In this document: piece after piece, positions 5,455 through 27,126 of the stretch
Layout: the number at the start of each line of letters is the position of its first letter
Numbering within the stretch: position 1 is the first letter of the stretch
Source of the DNA: Hoeflea sp.
Lineage (GTDB): Bacteria; Pseudomonadota; Alphaproteobacteria; Rhizobiales; Rhizobiaceae
Length of the DNA: 64,000 bases
Direction of reading: 5' to 3'
NCBI RefSeq assembly: GCF_002733955.1
Contig: NZ_NVXQ01000004.1
Span: 62,001-126,000, forward strand
Made by a program: the position numbers and the translations under genes
The notes under the pieces: generated by a model
Databases searched by the model: none
The model's input: only the letters and a program-made list of their open reading frames with translations
Told to the model about the DNA's origin: nothing

Positions 5455-6600
5455 CTAGGCCTCTTTCTTGTTCAGCAGCGCTGCAGCTTCCTCGATACCG
5501 AGGGGGGCCGGCTGTTCGCAGCTTGTGGTCGGGCGAATGAACGTGCCGGATTCTCCCGAACGGAGAATGGCTGTCATCACATCTACCACATGAAGCGCAA
5601 ATTCAAGCGAGCAACGGTGCGGACGGTTTTCGAGAATGGCGAGCGCCATGTCGGCGAGGCCTGCCGTGCGGTAATTGGCCATCATGCCCTGGTTGTGCTT
5701 CTGGTTGGGCACGCCGAGCGCATGTTCCCATGCGGGCAGATCGCGGGCTTCTCCACCCTGTCCGACCAGCTCGACCTTGCCGCCGAAGAAGTTCGGATCC
5801 GGAACCACCAGGCTGGCTTCGGTGCCGTAAAGCTCCATCGGGCGGTGGCCGTGGGTCTTGACGTCCCAACTGGTGCCGAGTGTGACAAGGGCTCCGTTGG
5901 CGAATTCGAGAACCGCATGGACCGTGGTCGGCGTCTCGACGGTGATCATCTCGCCATGGCGCGGCTCCGAGGTGATCTTGCGCTCTGGGCTGGGGATCGC
6001 AGTCATGGCGGCAACGCGGACCACCGGACCGATCAGCTGCACCAGGTTGGAAATGTAATAGGGCCCGAGATCAAGGATCGGTCCGCCGCCGGGCTTGAAG
6101 AAGAAATCCGGGTTGGGGTGCCAGTGCTCCATGCCGGGGCTCAGCACATGACAGGTGCCGCCGGTGATGCGGCCGGCAGCGCCAGATTCCACCAGATGCC
6201 GCGCCAGCTGATGGGCGCCGCCGAGGAAGGTGTCGGGCGCCGAACCGACACGCAGGCCCTTCCGGGCCGCCCGTTCGGCCAGATCGCGACCTTCTTCCAC
6301 CGAGAGCACGAAGGGTTTTTCCGAAAACACGTGCTTGCCCGCATCGAGCACCTGGGCCGAAACGGCGTAATGCACCGCAGGTACCGTCAGGTTGACGACC
6401 ATGTCGATGTCGTCAGACGCCAGCATGTCTTCGACGCTCTGGGCGCGAATGCCGTATTCGGCAGCACGGGCCTTGGCGGCGTCAGCATTGATATCGGCGC
6501 AGGCGCGCACCTCGATGCCTTTGAACAGGGGCGCGAGCCCGAGATAGGAGGTGGAAATATTGCCGCATCCGATGATGCCGACGCCGAGAACTTTTGCCAT
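5455..6600 (-). CDS. Gfo/Idh/MocA family oxidoreductase
   Basis: NAD(P)-dependent sugar or inositol dehydrogenase of 381 aa. The N-terminal Rossmann motif GVGIIGCGNIS is at residues 6-16 and the family's EKP catalytic-lysine motif appears in HVFSEKPFVLS near residue 100. The GGGPILDLGPYYISNLVQL block is the second conserved motif of the alpha/beta domain. I start at the ATG of MAKVLGVG (6598-6600), which lies five bases after the isomerase stop and behind a GGAG purine run; the open frame extends nine codons further but those overlap the isomerase gene. It is paired with the sugar isomerase/epimerase, a common combination in myo-inositol-like or unusual-sugar pathways. The exact sugar is unknown. 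Confidence 0.9.
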   Translation of the reverse strand: MAKVLGVGIIGCGNISTSYLGLAPLFKGIEVRACADINADAAKARAAEYGIRAQSVEDMLASDDIDMVVNLTVPAVHYAVSAQVLDAGKHVFSEKPFVLSVEEGRDLAERAARKGLRVGSAPDTFLGGAHQLARHLVESGAAGRITGGTCHVLSPGMEHWHPNPDFFFKPGGGPILDLGPYYISNLVQLIGPVVRVAAMTAIPSPERKITSEPRHGEMITVETPTTVHAVLEFANGALVTLGTSWDVKTHGHRPMELYGTEASLVVPDPNFFGGKVELVGQGGEARDLPAWEHALGVPNQKHNQGMMANYRTAGLADMALAILENRPHRCSLEFALHVVDVMTAILRSGESGTFIRPTTSCEQPAPLGIEEAAALLNKKEA

Positions 6601-6605
6601 ATCGC

Positions 6606-7358
6606 CTACTCCGAAGTGCTGCGGCACCAGTCGAGCGATCGCGATGCGAACCGGCTGATGTCGGAGGGGTTGTCATGTTCCATGATGAAAAGCGTCGCCG
6701 GCGCACTGGCCTTGAGCTGGGTGAACAACGCCGTCCAGTCAACGGTGCCGTGGCCGACATCGGCCCAGCCGTCTTCATCCAGGCATTCGCCTTGCGGCGC
6801 GATGTCCTTGACGTGGACCGCGGTGATCCGCTTGCCGAAGCGGGAAACCCAGTCGGCCGCATCGGCGCCGCCGCGAATGACCCAGGCGATGTCGGCTTCC
6901 CATTCCAGCTCGGGTGCCGCCTCCAAGAGGATCTGCATCGGCACTGATCCATCGCCGAGCGGCACGAATTCGAAATCATGATTGTGCCAACCGAAGCCGT
7001 AGCCGGCGGCGCGGACCTTTTCGCCCACGGCACTCAGACGGGCGGCGAAAGCCTGCCAGCCGGCCTTGTCGGCGGGGCGCTGCTCGGCGGTGATGTGCGG
7101 GCAGTAGATCTGCTTGATGCCAAGCGTCGAGGCGGTTTTCAGAACGCCGTCCAGATCGCCTTCAAGCGCATCGATTGAAAAATGCCCCGACGGCATGGAC
7201 ACGCCGTTCTGGTCCATCAGCTTGCGGAAGGCGGCGGGATCTTCATAGACCCCGCCGAAGCCTTCGACATTCTTGTATCCGGCGGCGGCGAGCATCGCCA
7301 GGACGTCCGACCAGGGCTGGAAATTGCGAGCGCTGTAGAGCTGAAATGAGAAATCCAT
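6606..7358 (-). CDS. Sugar phosphate isomerase/epimerase (AP endonuclease 2-like TIM barrel)
   Basis: TIM-barrel protein of 250 aa in the xylose-isomerase-like/IolE-IolI superfamily, which isomerises or epimerises sugars with a bound divalent metal. Candidate metal ligands are in GFGWHNHDFEF (histidines and Glu near residues 122-130), the Asp of EADIAWV, the His of TAVHVKD and the Glu of IMEHDNP. Length fits the single-domain subgroup. The ATG at 7356-7358 has an AGGAAAG ribosome site about nine bases upstream. It is the first catabolic gene after the transporter block, with 138 bp separating it from the ATPase gene; I see no convincing terminator in that gap, so continued transcription is likely. 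Confidence 0.88.
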   Translation of the reverse strand: MDFSFQLYSARNFQPWSDVLAMLAAAGYKNVEGFGGVYEDPAAFRKLMDQNGVSMPSGHFSIDALEGDLDGVLKTASTLGIKQIYCPHITAEQRPADKAGWQAFAARLSAVGEKVRAAGYGFGWHNHDFEFVPLGDGSVPMQILLEAAPELEWEADIAWVIRGGADAADWVSRFGKRITAVHVKDIAPQGECLDEDGWADVGHGTVDWTALFTQLKASAPATLFIMEHDNPSDISRFASRSLDWCRSTSE

Positions 7359-22722: not shown

Positions 22723-24309
22723 ATGGTTTCGCTCATGGATGATTCGCCCACCAACGCCGCCGAGTTCACGGTCAGTGAGCTGTCGGGCTCTATTCGTCGG
22801 ACGGTCGAAGATGCCTTCGGCAATGTACGGGTGCGCGGCGAGATTTCGGGTTATCGCGGGCCGCATTCCTCCGGACACGCCTATTTCTCATTGAAGGATG
22901 ACAGGGCCCGGATCGAGGCGGTGATCTGGAAGGGCGTGTTCTCGCGGCTCAAGCACCGGCCCGAGGAAGGGCTGGAGGTGATCGCCTCGGGCAAGATCAC
23001 CACCTATGCCGGGTCTTCGAAATACCAGATCGTGATCGAGGCGCTGGAACCCGCCGGCGCAGGCGCATTGATGGCGCTGATCGAGGAGCGTCGGCGCAAG
23101 CTGGCCGCCGAAGGCCTGTTCGACGAGGGCCGCAAGCAGTTGCTTCCCTACATGCCGATGGTGATCGGCGTGGTGACCTCGCCCACGGGCGCGGTGATCC
23201 GCGATATCCTGCACCGGATCGAGGACCGGTTTCCGGTCCATGTGATTGTCTGGCCGGTCAGGGTTCAGGGCGACACCTCGGGTGACGAAGTTTCCCGCGC
23301 CATCAACGGCTTCAACGCGTTTTCGCCGAATGGTCGGATCAGGCGGCCGGATCTGATCATCGTGGCGCGCGGGGGCGGCAGTCTGGAAGACCTCTGGGGC
23401 TTCAACGACGAGGCGGTGGTGCGCGCCGCCGCCGCATCCGACATTCCGCTGATCTCGGCGGTCGGGCACGAGACCGACTGGACGCTGATCGATCACGCCA
23501 GCGACCGGCGGGCGCCGACACCGACAGGAGCCGCCGAAATGGCGGTGCCGGTGAAGGCCGATCTGGAAGCGCACCTGGCAACGCTCGCCGCGCGGCTCAG
23601 ATCAGCGCAGACCCGCACCCTGGACCGGCGGCGAGAAACCGTGCGCGGCCTGGCGCGGGCGCTGCCGACGCTCGACAGCGTGCTGGCGCTGCCGCGGCAG
23701 CGTCTCGACCGCTCGGCGCAATCGCTGGGACGGGCGCTGGAGCTCAACACCGCCAACCGCCGCCGCCGGTTTGAGCAGCAGGCAGCACGGATCACGCCTG
23801 TCGCGCTTGTTTCCGCCCTGCGCGAAAAGCGCCAGCAGGTGCGCGACAAGATCGCCCGCATGGACCGGGTGCAGGAGCGGCGGATCGATGCGCTGCGGGC
23901 GCGGCTGGAGCGCCATGCCCAGAGCGTCGCCACGCTGCCGCGCCGGATCCGGGAGGCGCATAGCCGCGGGCTGGAACGGCTGACTGACCTGGGACGCAGA
24001 CGCGACAGTGCGATGAGCCTGATGCTGGATCAGCACAAGCGCGGGCTTGGGGCGCAATCGCGGATGCTGCAATCGCTGTCCTACCAGAGCGTGCTGGGAC
24101 GCGGCTTTGCGGTGGTTCGCGGGCAGGACCGAGCGCTGCTGTCGCGCGCAGCACAGGTCGAGACCGGCACGATGATTGCCGTCGAGTTCGCCGATGGCGA
24201 GGTTTCGGCACTGGCCAGCAGCAGCGACCAGCCGATCTCCGCACCGAAGAAGCCGGCTCGCGCCAAGGCCGGAAAAAGCAAAGAACCCGGACAGGGCAGC
24301 CTGTTCTAG
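22723..24309 (+). CDS. xseA: Exodeoxyribonuclease VII large subunit
   Basis: Large subunit of the single-strand-specific exonuclease, 528 aa. N-terminal OB-fold: [19 protein letters not shown] then [26 protein letters not shown]. Catalytic domain has [15 protein letters not shown] near residue 145, [16 protein letters not shown] near 210 and [24 protein letters not shown] near 245, in the order known for XseA. Residues about 270-420 are long arginine-rich coiled coils, as in the family. Start may be the ATG at 22723 or the one at 22735; the latter leaves the more typical N-terminus. XseB is not in this window. The following SOS-type repair module lies only 112 bp downstream on the same strand. 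Confidence 0.96.
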
Positions 24310-24386: not shown

Positions 24387-24419
24387 TTGCTGTGTGCATG
24401 GATGGAACATATAAGGAAC
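24387..24419 (+). promoter_or_regulatory. LexA-box promoter of the radical SAM/UdgX operon
   Basis: GAAC at 24405-24408 and GAAC at 24416-24419 are separated by exactly 7 bases. GAAC-N7-GAAC is the reverse complement of the alphaproteobacterial LexA box GTTC-N7-GTTC. The box covers a -10 candidate TATAAG (24410-24415), which has a -35 candidate TTGCTG (24387-24392) at an ideal 17-base spacing. Transcription would then start at about 24421-24423, at the ATG itself. Confidence 0.8.
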
Positions 24420-24421
24420 AA

Positions 24422-25657
24422 ATGACCGGAAAGACACTCGAATCAAAGCTCGCCATCCTCAGCGATGCGGCCAAGTATGATGCGTCCTGCGCCTCGTCGG
24501 GATCAACCAAGCGTGACAGCCGCGACGGCAAGGGGTTGGGCTCGAATGAGGGCACCGGGATCTGCCATGCCTATGCGCCGGACGGGCGCTGCATCAGCCT
24601 GCTCAAGATCCTGATGACCAATTTCTGCATCTATGACTGCGCCTATTGCATCAACCGGGTGTCGTCGAACGTGCCGCGGGCGCGGTTTTCGGTCGACGAG
24701 GTGGTTCGGCTGACCATCGATTTCTACCGGCGCAATTACATTGAGGGCCTGTTCCTGTCTTCGGGCGTCATCCGGTCGCCGGATGCGACCATGTCGGACA
24801 TGGTGCAGATCGTGCGCAAATTGCGCGAGGAAGAGAATTTCCGCGGCTATATTCACCTCAAGACCATTCCCGACGCTGCACCCGAACTGATCGAGGAAGC
24901 GGGGCGACTGGCTGACCGGCTGTCGATTAATGTCGAACTGCCGACGGATGCCAGCATGGAGACCTTCGCCTCGGAGAAGAACCCGGGACAGATCCGCCGG
25001 GCAATGGCCGATGTGCGGCTGCGCAAGGAAGCAGCCAGCGACACCACCCACACCGGGCGCAAGGCAGCACGGTTTGCGCCGGCCGGGCAATCAACGCAGA
25101 TGATCGTCGGCGCCGATGGCTCCAATGATGCGGCAATCCTGGGTGAATCGACACGGCTTTACTCCAGCTATCAGCTGAAGCGGGTCTATTACTCCGCGTT
25201 TTCGCCGATTCCCGACAGCTCGTCGCGGCTGCCGCTGGTGTCGCCGCCGCTGGTGCGCGAACACCGGCTCTACCAGGCCGACTGGCTGTTGCGGTTCTAT
25301 GGCTTCGACCTCGAGGAGATCGTCAGCGGCGCGCGGGGCGGCAATCTTGATCTCGAGCTTGATCCGAAACTGGCCTGGGCTTTACTGCACCGGGAGATGT
25401 TTCCGGTCGACATCAACCGCGCCGAGCGCGAGTTGCTGCTGCGGGTGCCGGGCTTCGGGGTGAAGACGGTCAACCGGATCCTGAGCACGCGGCGTTACCG
25501 CACTATCCGCTACGAGGATGTGGTGCGGATGGGCGGATCAATGAAGAAGGCCGGACCCTTCGTGACCGCACAGGGCTGGTCGCCAGGCGGCTTGATCGAC
25601 ACGGCGCAGCTTCGCAGCCGCTTCCTGCCGCCACCGCAGCAATTGTCGCTGCTGTGA
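24422..25657 (+). CDS. Putative DNA modification/repair radical SAM protein
   Basis: A 411-aa radical SAM enzyme. The cluster-binding CX3CX2C motif is C69-IYD-C73-AY-C76, after ICHAYAPDGRCISLLKILMTN. A helix-hairpin-helix DNA-binding motif LLRVPGFGVKTVNRIL lies near residues 338-355. This architecture matches the family described as putative DNA modification/repair radical SAM protein (TIGR03916-like), whose chemistry is unknown. The frame is open back to 24176, but the ATG at 24422 fits best: it lies just after the LexA box and an AAGGA run, and other upstream starts lie before the promoter. It overlaps the UdgX fusion gene by four bases, so the two form one SOS-responsive unit. No photolyase or polymerase gene is adjacent. 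Confidence 0.9.
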   Translation: MTGKTLESKLAILSDAAKYDASCASSGSTKRDSRDGKGLGSNEGTGICHAYAPDGRCISLLKILMTNFCIYDCAYCINRVSSNVPRARFSVDEVVRLTIDFYRRNYIEGLFLSSGVIRSPDATMSDMVQIVRKLREEENFRGYIHLKTIPDAAPELIEEAGRLADRLSINVELPTDASMETFASEKNPGQIRRAMADVRLRKEAASDTTHTGRKAARFAPAGQSTQMIVGADGSNDAAILGESTRLYSSYQLKRVYYSAFSPIPDSSSRLPLVSPPLVREHRLYQADWLLRFYGFDLEEIVSGARGGNLDLELDPKLAWALLHREMFPVDINRAERELLLRVPGFGVKTVNRILSTRRYRTIRYEDVVRMGGSMKKAGPFVTAQGWSPGGLIDTAQLRSRFLPPPQQLSLL

Positions 25658-27126
25658 TGCGGCACATCACGCTTCCCGATACTGGAACAGCCGCCGCCTG
25701 GCGCGAGGCCGCCCGCTCGTGCCTCAAGGAAGGACTGTCGCCTGCCGACATCCTGTGGGGCAGCGAGGCAAGCGAGCGCAGCCTATTTGATGACCAGCCC
25801 GTTTCGGGTGCTGCGCCGGTAAAAATGACGGTGCCGCGCAGTTTCGTCAGCCTCGCCGAAACCGTCTGCTGGCACCGTGACGCGGACCGCTTTGCACGGC
25901 TCTACGCCTTCCTGTGGCGGCTGAAAGACGCGCCGCATCTGATTGCCGATCGTGGCGACAGGGAGCTGGCGCATCTGCGCTCAATGGAAAAATCGGTGCA
26001 TCGATGCCAGCACAAGATGAAGGCCTTCGTGCGGTTCCGGGAAATCGGCGAGCGCGATGCTGCGCGGCGCAGTTTTGCCGCCTGGTTCGAGCCGACCCAC
26101 CACACGGTGGAGCCGACGGCGGATTTCTTCGCCCGCCGCTTTGCCGACATGGACTGGCGCATCGTCACACCGGAGAAGACTGCAATCTTTCTCGATGGGC
26201 GCTTGAGCTTTGCCCCGGGTCAGCCCAAGCCGGACTTGCCGGATGACGCCGGCGAGGCGCTGTGGCTCACCTATTTCCGCAGCATCTTCAACCCGGCGCG
26301 GCTGAAGGTGCAGGCGATGACCTCGGAGATGCCGAAGAAATACTGGAAGAACCTGCCCGAAGCGGCGACCATTCCCGACCTGATTGCCAATGCCCCGGCG
26401 CGGGCCCGGGCGATGGCCGAGGCAGCCCCCACCCTGCCCCCGGTTCGGGCCGAAAAGGCGCGGCAACAACTCGCCGCACACATGTCAGCCTGGGAAGGCC
26501 CGAAAGAGGCGCTGCCGGCGGCGATCCACGATTGCACCCGCTGTCCGCTGCACAGAACCGCGACGCAAGCGGTGCCCGGCGTCGGGCCGCACGACGCGGC
26601 GCTGATGATTGTCGGCGAGCAGCCGGGTGATCAGGAAGACCTGGCGGGCCTGCCCTTTGTCGGCCCGGCCGGGCAGCTGTTCGACCGGGTTGCGGAGGCC
26701 GCCGGATTACGGAGACAGGAGGCCTTCGTCACCAATGCGGTCAAGCACTTCAAGTTCACCCCGCGCGGCAAGCGGCGGTTGCACCAGCGGCCGAATTCCG
26801 GCGAGATCGAGCATTGCCGCTGGTGGCTGGATGCCGAACGGGCGCTGGTCAAGCCTAAGCTGATCCTGGCGCTCGGCGCCACGGCTGCGGAAGCGCTGAC
26901 CGGGTCCGGCGTCAATATTCTGCGCCGCCGCGGCACGGTGGAACAGCTTGCCGACGGCACCCCGGTGCTGCTGGCCGTGCATCCGTCGTTCCTGCTGCGC
27001 CTGCCCGATCCGGCGGAACGGGAAAGGCAGACAGCGTTGTTCGAGGCGGATCTTCGCTGTGCGATGGAGATGGTTGCAGCGCTCGTGGCACCAACTACAG
27101 CGGCAGCTCTTGCTGAACCGCGATGA
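25654..27126 (+). CDS. DUF4130/UdgX fusion, uracil-DNA-binding repair protein
   Basis: A 490-aa two-domain protein. Residues about 1-245 are the DUF4130 (TIGR03915-like) domain that usually accompanies the radical SAM gene (SMEKSVHRCQHKMKAFVRFRE, YFRSIFNPARLKVQAMTSEMPKKYWKNLPE read as parts). Residues about 285-480 are UdgX, a family-4-like uracil-DNA glycosylase with a [4Fe-4S] cluster: CTRC at 294-297, GEQPGDQEDL at 321-330, KRRLH at 373-377, Cys388, and VHPSFLLR near the end. In UdgX the histidine of the KRRIH loop forms a covalent bond to the uracil-derived abasic site (established for the mycobacterial protein); here Ile is Leu but His377 is kept. Start is the GTG at 25654 (GTGA overlap) or the ATG at 25657. 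Confidence 0.92.
   Translation: MMRHITLPDTGTAAAWREAARSCLKEGLSPADILWGSEASERSLFDDQPVSGAAPVKMTVPRSFVSLAETVCWHRDADRFARLYAFLWRLKDAPHLIADRGDRELAHLRSMEKSVHRCQHKMKAFVRFREIGERDAARRSFAAWFEPTHHTVEPTADFFARRFADMDWRIVTPEKTAIFLDGRLSFAPGQPKPDLPDDAGEALWLTYFRSIFNPARLKVQAMTSEMPKKYWKNLPEAATIPDLIANAPARARAMAEAAPTLPPVRAEKARQQLAAHMSAWEGPKEALPAAIHDCTRCPLHRTATQAVPGVGPHDAALMIVGEQPGDQEDLAGLPFVGPAGQLFDRVAEAAGLRRQEAFVTNAVKHFKFTPRGKRRLHQRPNSGEIEHCRWWLDAERALVKPKLILALGATAAEALTGSGVNILRRRGTVEQLADGTPVLLAVHPSFLLRLPDPAERERQTALFEADLRCAMEMVAALVAPTTAAALAEPR

Follow-up and report, generated by a model that had tools for sequence, protein, structure and literature searches.

The window analysed here is a 64,000-nucleotide stretch of a Hoeflea sp. 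contig (NZ_NVXQ01000004.1). Within it lie two adjacent genes, one encoding a radical S-adenosylmethionine (SAM) protein with a helix-hairpin-helix (HhH) segment and the other a fusion of DUF4130 to UdgX, a uracil-DNA glycosylase (UDG). We conclude that the inseparable unit of this module is the radical SAM protein together with DUF4130, and that UdgX is optional. The features of the locus are as follows.

24405..24419, + strand: LexA-type operator GAACATATAAGGAAC (GAAC-N7-GAAC), with 2 bases between its end and the first gene's ATG
24422..25657, + strand: radical SAM/HhH gene, 411 amino acids (TIGR03916; named COG4277 in the extract of PMC8565304)
24488..24592, + strand: N-terminal C23...C48-H49...C57, candidate auxiliary cluster or metal site (conservation)
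24626..24649, + strand: CX3CX2C radical SAM cluster motif, C69/C73/C76 (motif match)
25406..25492, + strand: helix-hairpin-helix segment, amino acids 329-357 (PF12836 and 2duy profile matches)
25640..25654, + strand: C-terminal QLSLL, predicted beta-clamp docking peptide (motif and conservation)
25657..27126, + strand: DUF4130-UdgX fusion gene, 489 amino acids from ATG (490 if GTG at 25654 is the start)
25684..26364, + strand: DUF4130 domain, amino acids 10-236, constant partner of the radical SAM protein (TIGR03915, co-occurrence)
25783..25788, + strand: conserved Leu-Phe pair L43-F44 in the DUF4130 linker, possible short docking motif (conservation)
26371..27060, + strand: UdgX domain, amino acids 239-468 (TIGR03914)
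26614..26628, + strand: UdgX motif A, GEQPG (motif match)
26770..26784, + strand: UdgX R-loop KRRLH with the cross-linking His, residue 376 from ATG and 377 from GTG
26980..26988, + strand: UdgX motif B, HPS (motif match)

The radical SAM protein scores 572.4 bits against TIGR03916 (rSAM_link_UDG; cut-off 343.5) and also matches PF04055, the radical SAM family. The DUF4130 part scores 199.8 bits against TIGR03915 (SAM_7_link_chp; cut-off 112.25) and 126.5 against PF13566 (cut-off 27), and the UdgX part scores 332.6 bits against TIGR03914 (cut-off 189.95). These scores place each part in its family and confirm the two-gene module that an earlier reading of the window, made from its letters alone (the sequence-only reading), had described. 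The four-base overlap given there holds if the GTG at 25654, within the junction GTGATG, is the start codon of the second gene; if the ATG at 25657 is used, the genes share a single base, as TGATG. Among the 79 named relatives with DUF4130, an in-frame TGATG junction was found in 29 and ATGA or GTGA in 27, the two classes not being exclusive and the starts being predicted.

We determined co-occurrence in two samples, 200 genomes of the phylum (Pseudomonadota) and 289 of the class (Alphaproteobacteria), which have seven module-bearing genomes in common; both taxon names are taken from the named relatives. Presence was taken as a match above the curated cut-off; 37 of the 200 genomes have some match to TIGR03916, six of them only a weak one (18-30 bits), which was not counted. 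TIGR03916 was present in 31 of the 200 genomes, TIGR03915 was present in exactly those 31, and the two genes were neighbours in every case. In the class sample each family was found in 18 genomes and both in 17. One mismatch (G237) is a radical SAM gene that runs into a contig end; the other (G367, locus L162) is a decayed locus in which the operator survives along with the part of the radical SAM gene for its C-terminal third, DUF4130 with a frameshift and a 13-bit scrap of UdgX. Consistent with this, DUF4130 lies downstream of the radical SAM gene in 79 of 80 named loci, the remaining one (L145) stopping first at a contig end; two of the 80 (L113 and L127) have a DUF4130 match that is divided over different reading frames. 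Among 14 control genomes, Caulobacter vibrioides has all three families, and Bacteroides ihuae has TIGR03916 and TIGR03915 without UdgX. In the stretches of plasmid records that were read, the radical SAM and DUF4130 genes also occur without a neighbouring UdgX in Spirosoma, Phocaeicola, Acetoanaerobium and Acinetobacter. The pair is therefore present in at least three phyla, Pseudomonadota, Bacteroidota and Bacillota, and the recurrent pairing of families that had been proposed for the window is well founded.

The same counts do not support the radical SAM protein and UdgX as the functional couple that the sequence-only reading had envisaged. UdgX exceeds its cut-off in 29 of the 200 phylum genomes, 23 with the module and six without TIGR03916, and is absent from eight of the 31 module genomes. 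In the class sample it was found in 24 genomes, of which 12 have TIGR03916 and 12 do not; six of the 18 genomes with TIGR03916 lack it, the fragment in G237 included. Of the named loci, 73 of 80 encode a UdgX domain. We built a tree of 118 radical SAM rows with FastTree, in which long rows are placed loosely; the window supplies two of the aligned rows, its own and L001. Along this tree the UdgX label switches 11 times, and at least nine of these changes are forced by starred branches. Since UdgX exists without the module (6/29 and 12/24 genomes) and many modules exist without UdgX, we regard it as an accessory. In one genome that lacks TIGR03916 (G071, C1:5486827-5487696), a partial DUF4130, comprising the last 50 profile positions and an internal stop, directly precedes UdgX; this stand-alone UdgX resembles a fossil of the module.

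The radical SAM protein of the window groups with Roseobacteraceae (8 rows, 98) and stands apart from the three rows that come from its genome's own family (L008, L015 and L017); relatives occur on 158 plasmid records. For both reasons the module seems to move horizontally, and the copy in the window was likely acquired in this way. One record labelled as an Acinetobacter phage (L156) carries the module beside glyQS and other cellular-looking genes; this label may be wrong.

Residues C69, C73 and C76 of the radical SAM protein are invariant in all 118 aligned rows. The protein has both the CX3CX2C motif and the barrel fold of the radical SAM superfamily, and [4Fe-4S]-dependent cleavage of SAM is predicted. 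Its structural neighbours among the VIA-align matches listed include HydE, LipA and BioB; none of the 50 neighbours listed is a spore photoproduct lyase, and such a listing excludes nothing. C23, C48, H49 and C57 are each kept in 118 of 118 rows, a degree of conservation that makes them a candidate auxiliary cluster or metal site. The HhH motif that had been proposed for this protein was found as a segment with a profile match to the ComEA-related chain 2duy (E 0.0078), but its PF12836 score, 19.8 bits, lies under the Pfam threshold of 27.

The UdgX part of the fusion carries the motifs given for UdgX in the extract of PMC10359453, namely the Gln of motif A, the KRRxH loop and HPS, and a covalent complex with abasic DNA is predicted. 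The cross-linking His, numbered 377 in the sequence-only reading by counting from GTG, lies in an intact loop. Among the 49 proteins whose UdgX covers this column, 48 have the His, and the Gln of motif A is present in 48 of the 50 UdgX regions that were aligned. For DUF4130, a profile search of the PDB found no relatives at E values up to 10, and structure searches with the whole fusion list UDG rows, which bear on the UDG part. The invariant or nearly invariant columns of DUF4130 include no cysteine. The Leu-Phe pair falls in a linker that is variable and of lower confidence, where Leu is found in 111 and Phe in 104 of 114 sequences; a Qxx-L-[FLIW] string within the first ~110 residues occurs in only 13 of the 114. 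That this pair might be a second clamp motif is a weak idea.

The likely ribosome-binding region of the radical SAM gene shares bases with the second half-site of the operator. Taken alone, GAAC-N7-GAAC is not significant in 64 kb: there are three matches against 1.64 expected, and 25 of 100 shuffles reach three. The other two matches, however, sit within coding frames. We compared relatives, taking the conserved AKYD codons as reference point: of 80 named relatives, 75 have the operator no more than 200 bases upstream of these codons, as compared with 22 of 4057 control windows drawn from these loci. In a further 30 loci it was found in all 22 that belong to the window's class. The SOS control claimed earlier is thus upheld at the level of the operator. 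A GAAC-N7-GAAC operator also lies ~80 bp before the lexA match of the host genome, and no exact match was found at the host recA locus. The extract of PMC8565304 gives the alphaproteobacterial LexA motif as GTTC-N7-GTTC. The gene pair has an operator of the LexA regulon of this class upstream, with LexA binding and damage induction predicted, and is probably switched on by DNA damage.

A clamp-binding consensus Q-L-x-L-F located at C-termini is described in the extract of PMC4549789. The radical SAM protein ends in a peptide of this type, and binding to DnaN is predicted. The strict form of the motif occurs in the final 20 residues of 71 of 80 relatives, as compared with one of 323 control frames (longest open frames, not annotated genes), and elsewhere in the protein in none of the 80. 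Q407 is kept in all 118 aligned rows. In the predicted structure, the confidence score (predicted local distance difference test, pLDDT) is 73 over residues 401-410 and 53 at 411. The tail is seen in other phyla too, where relatives end in QLSLF (Spirosoma), QLSIF (Acetoanaerobium), QLILEF (Phocaeicola) and QLSLW (Gemmatirosa), and an Acinetobacter relative ends in QLSLGF. This conservation suggests that the radical SAM protein binds the beta sliding clamp through its tail.

Apart from frames antisense to the module genes, each further family recurs in at most 10 of the 81 neighbourhoods. Extra frames lie between the pair in L105 and L138; these do not recur, and we rejected a third conserved component. 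In L105, from a Fulvimarina metagenome-assembled genome, the frames at 6239-6862, between the radical SAM and DUF4130-UdgX genes, read as a HigBA-like toxin-antitoxin pair, and a further frame between the two genes reads as deaminase-like. Directly 5′ of the radical SAM gene in the window, on the same strand, is a frame (22723-24309) that we take to encode the large subunit of exonuclease VII (xseA). We rejected this gene as part of the system, since it is not among the recurrent families listed for the 81 neighbourhoods.

We propose that the module encodes an SOS-induced, clamp-tethered, two-component pair that processes DNA lesions and to which UdgX is often an accessory, a reading to which we assign a probability of about 0.5. 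LexA would keep the operon off, and damage would turn it on. The radical SAM protein and DUF4130, found together almost without exception, would act as one unit. The tail would dock the radical SAM protein on the beta clamp and the HhH segment would touch DNA, so that the protein would act where clamps sit on DNA that is newly replicated or gapped. At such sites, a 5′-deoxyadenosyl radical would take a hydrogen from a damaged nucleotide, and the lesion, for which a pyrimidine lesion is our guess, would be reversed or converted. DUF4130 may recognise or present the substrate. In many Proteobacteria UdgX is fused to DUF4130; it might excise uracil at the same site and cap the abasic site covalently, which could spare a single-stranded template from cutting before recombination or translesion synthesis; a role for UdgX in protecting abasic sites is proposed in the extract of PMC10359453. 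The SOS operator, HhH segment, clamp tail and UdgX together point to DNA damage at replication, and, since DUF4130 is a near-obligate partner, the radical chemistry should act on something that both proteins handle. A fuller version is more tentative: the radical SAM protein would be a client of the clamp and, joined to an obligate DUF4130 subunit with a new fold, would use radical chemistry to reverse a base lesion that blocks replication during SOS, UdgX being a recurrently gained or lost cap for abasic sites.

Other readings share part of this evidence. The pair might make a modified base rather than repair one, as the wording of NCBIfam, where TIGR03916 and TIGR03915 are named for their linkage and described under "DNA modification/repair", would allow; the extract of PMC3765255, in which DUF4130 is associated with SplB-like radical SAM proteins and UDGs, likewise suggests thymine modification. 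However, a damage response accounts better for the LexA operator and the clamp motif, no extra gene recurs, and PADLOC, a library of anti-phage systems, gave no match; we consider modification unlikely. Anti-phage defence is not supported by library matches, PADLOC and PHROGs giving none at E values up to 0.01. The operator and the clamp motif would suit an accessory of translesion synthesis that recruits or switches polymerases, the radical chemistry being secondary. This is improbable given the invariance of the three cluster cysteines and given that no further gene, hence no polymerase gene, recurs beside the pair.

We see little likelihood, too, of an activase role, in which DUF4130 or UdgX would carry out repair after being modified by the radical SAM protein. 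Near-obligate pairing and a partner with no fold match by profile are what such an enzyme would lead one to expect, but the lack of a conserved DUF4130 cysteine leaves no obvious thioether site, and the HhH segment and clamp motif point to DNA. The idea put forward in the sequence-only reading was that the UdgX-DNA crosslink might be released or modified by the radical SAM protein, or a base made ready for UdgX. In its favour, the operon of many genomes includes a UdgX whose cross-linking loop is intact. We consider it very unlikely. A core function that needs the crosslink is hard to reconcile with the absence of UdgX from 8/31 module genomes; UdgX also occurs without TIGR03916 (6/29), is missing beside the module in the Spirosoma and Acinetobacter stretches read, and comes and goes repeatedly on the radical SAM tree. 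Release of crosslinks is conceivable in genomes that hold both proteins, though unlikely as the main task of the module. The radical SAM protein goes with DUF4130.

Several points weigh against a clamp-tethered, SOS-induced lesion-processing pair. The counted co-occurrence covers Pseudomonadota only, the control genome Thermotoga maritima weakly matches TIGR03916 without having TIGR03915, and two genomes (G228 and G441) hold UdgX only away from the module. A Gemmatirosa relative (L154:4809-6257) is without DUF4130 on its plasmid record; it has the HhH segment and the tail and lacks all four residues of the N-terminal Cys/His motif, and is possibly a sister family. DUF4130 has no PDB relative by profile and might itself be a catalyst. 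The tail in the window has Leu where the consensus has F5, the strict form fails in 9/80 and 6/30 loci (L016 failing the loose form too), and the clamp patterns were defined after the tails had been inspected, in 80 loci that are related sequences. The operator was found in none of eight loci of other classes of the phylum; the pattern is alphaproteobacterial and may not be their LexA site, and its confinement to the window's class (22/22 against 0/8) is expected if it is the site of that class's own LexA. We found no biochemical or genetic data on the radical SAM or DUF4130 protein in open PMC text.

The sequence-only reading had called this an undescribed system. Its mechanism is undescribed in the literature examined, but the linkage and the SOS operon are published (NCBIfam, and the extracts of PMC3765255 and PMC8565304): pairing and SOS control are in print, without a mechanism, for a module named for its linkage. 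According to its extract, PMC8565304 assigns a COG1573-COG4277 operon to the SOS-type regulons of Bacteroidetes, with citations for Verrucomicrobia and Caulobacter (Alphaproteobacteria). PMC1839093 describes four COG1573 proteins in Caulobacter and does not use the word "radical". In open PMC text we found no paper combining "UdgX" and "radical SAM", and the papers that combine "radical SAM", "sliding clamp" and "DNA repair" are, by title, on other or general subjects. The clamp prediction and DUF4130 as the constant partner are absent from the examined text of PMC8565304 and PMC3765255. These two features turn a vague "uracil repair operon" into a testable hypothesis for a module that spans at least three phyla and has no assigned reaction in open PMC text. 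If the hypothesis is correct, the protein would repair DNA at the replication clamp by radical SAM chemistry.

We compared the module with known systems. UdgX of Mycobacterium smegmatis differs from that of the window, where a radical SAM gene comes first and UdgX is joined to DUF4130; solved UdgX chains comprise ~205-230 residues, whereas the UdgX of the window is part of a 489-residue fusion. Uracil excision and covalent capping of the abasic site are the known chemistry of the M. smegmatis protein. ImuB, Pol IV and Pol V are, like the pair proposed here, SOS-induced and equipped with a clamp-docking peptide; unlike them, the protein with the clamp tail in the window is a radical SAM enzyme and no polymerase. 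Spore photoproduct lyase (SplB) is a radical SAM DNA repair protein, as is proposed for the protein of the window, and, according to the extract of PMC8565304, is SOS-regulated in several species, but the window protein has an HhH segment, an N-terminal Cys/His motif and a clamp tail, and its listed structural neighbours include HydE, LipA and BioB. The COG1573-COG4277 operon, or TIGR03914-TIGR03915-TIGR03916 linkage, shares with the module its families by name, its operon logic and its SOS-type regulation. The published accounts, as far as their extracts extend, centre on UDG-based excision or on an association with SplB-like proteins, whereas here DUF4130 is the constant element and the radical SAM protein carries a predicted clamp motif.

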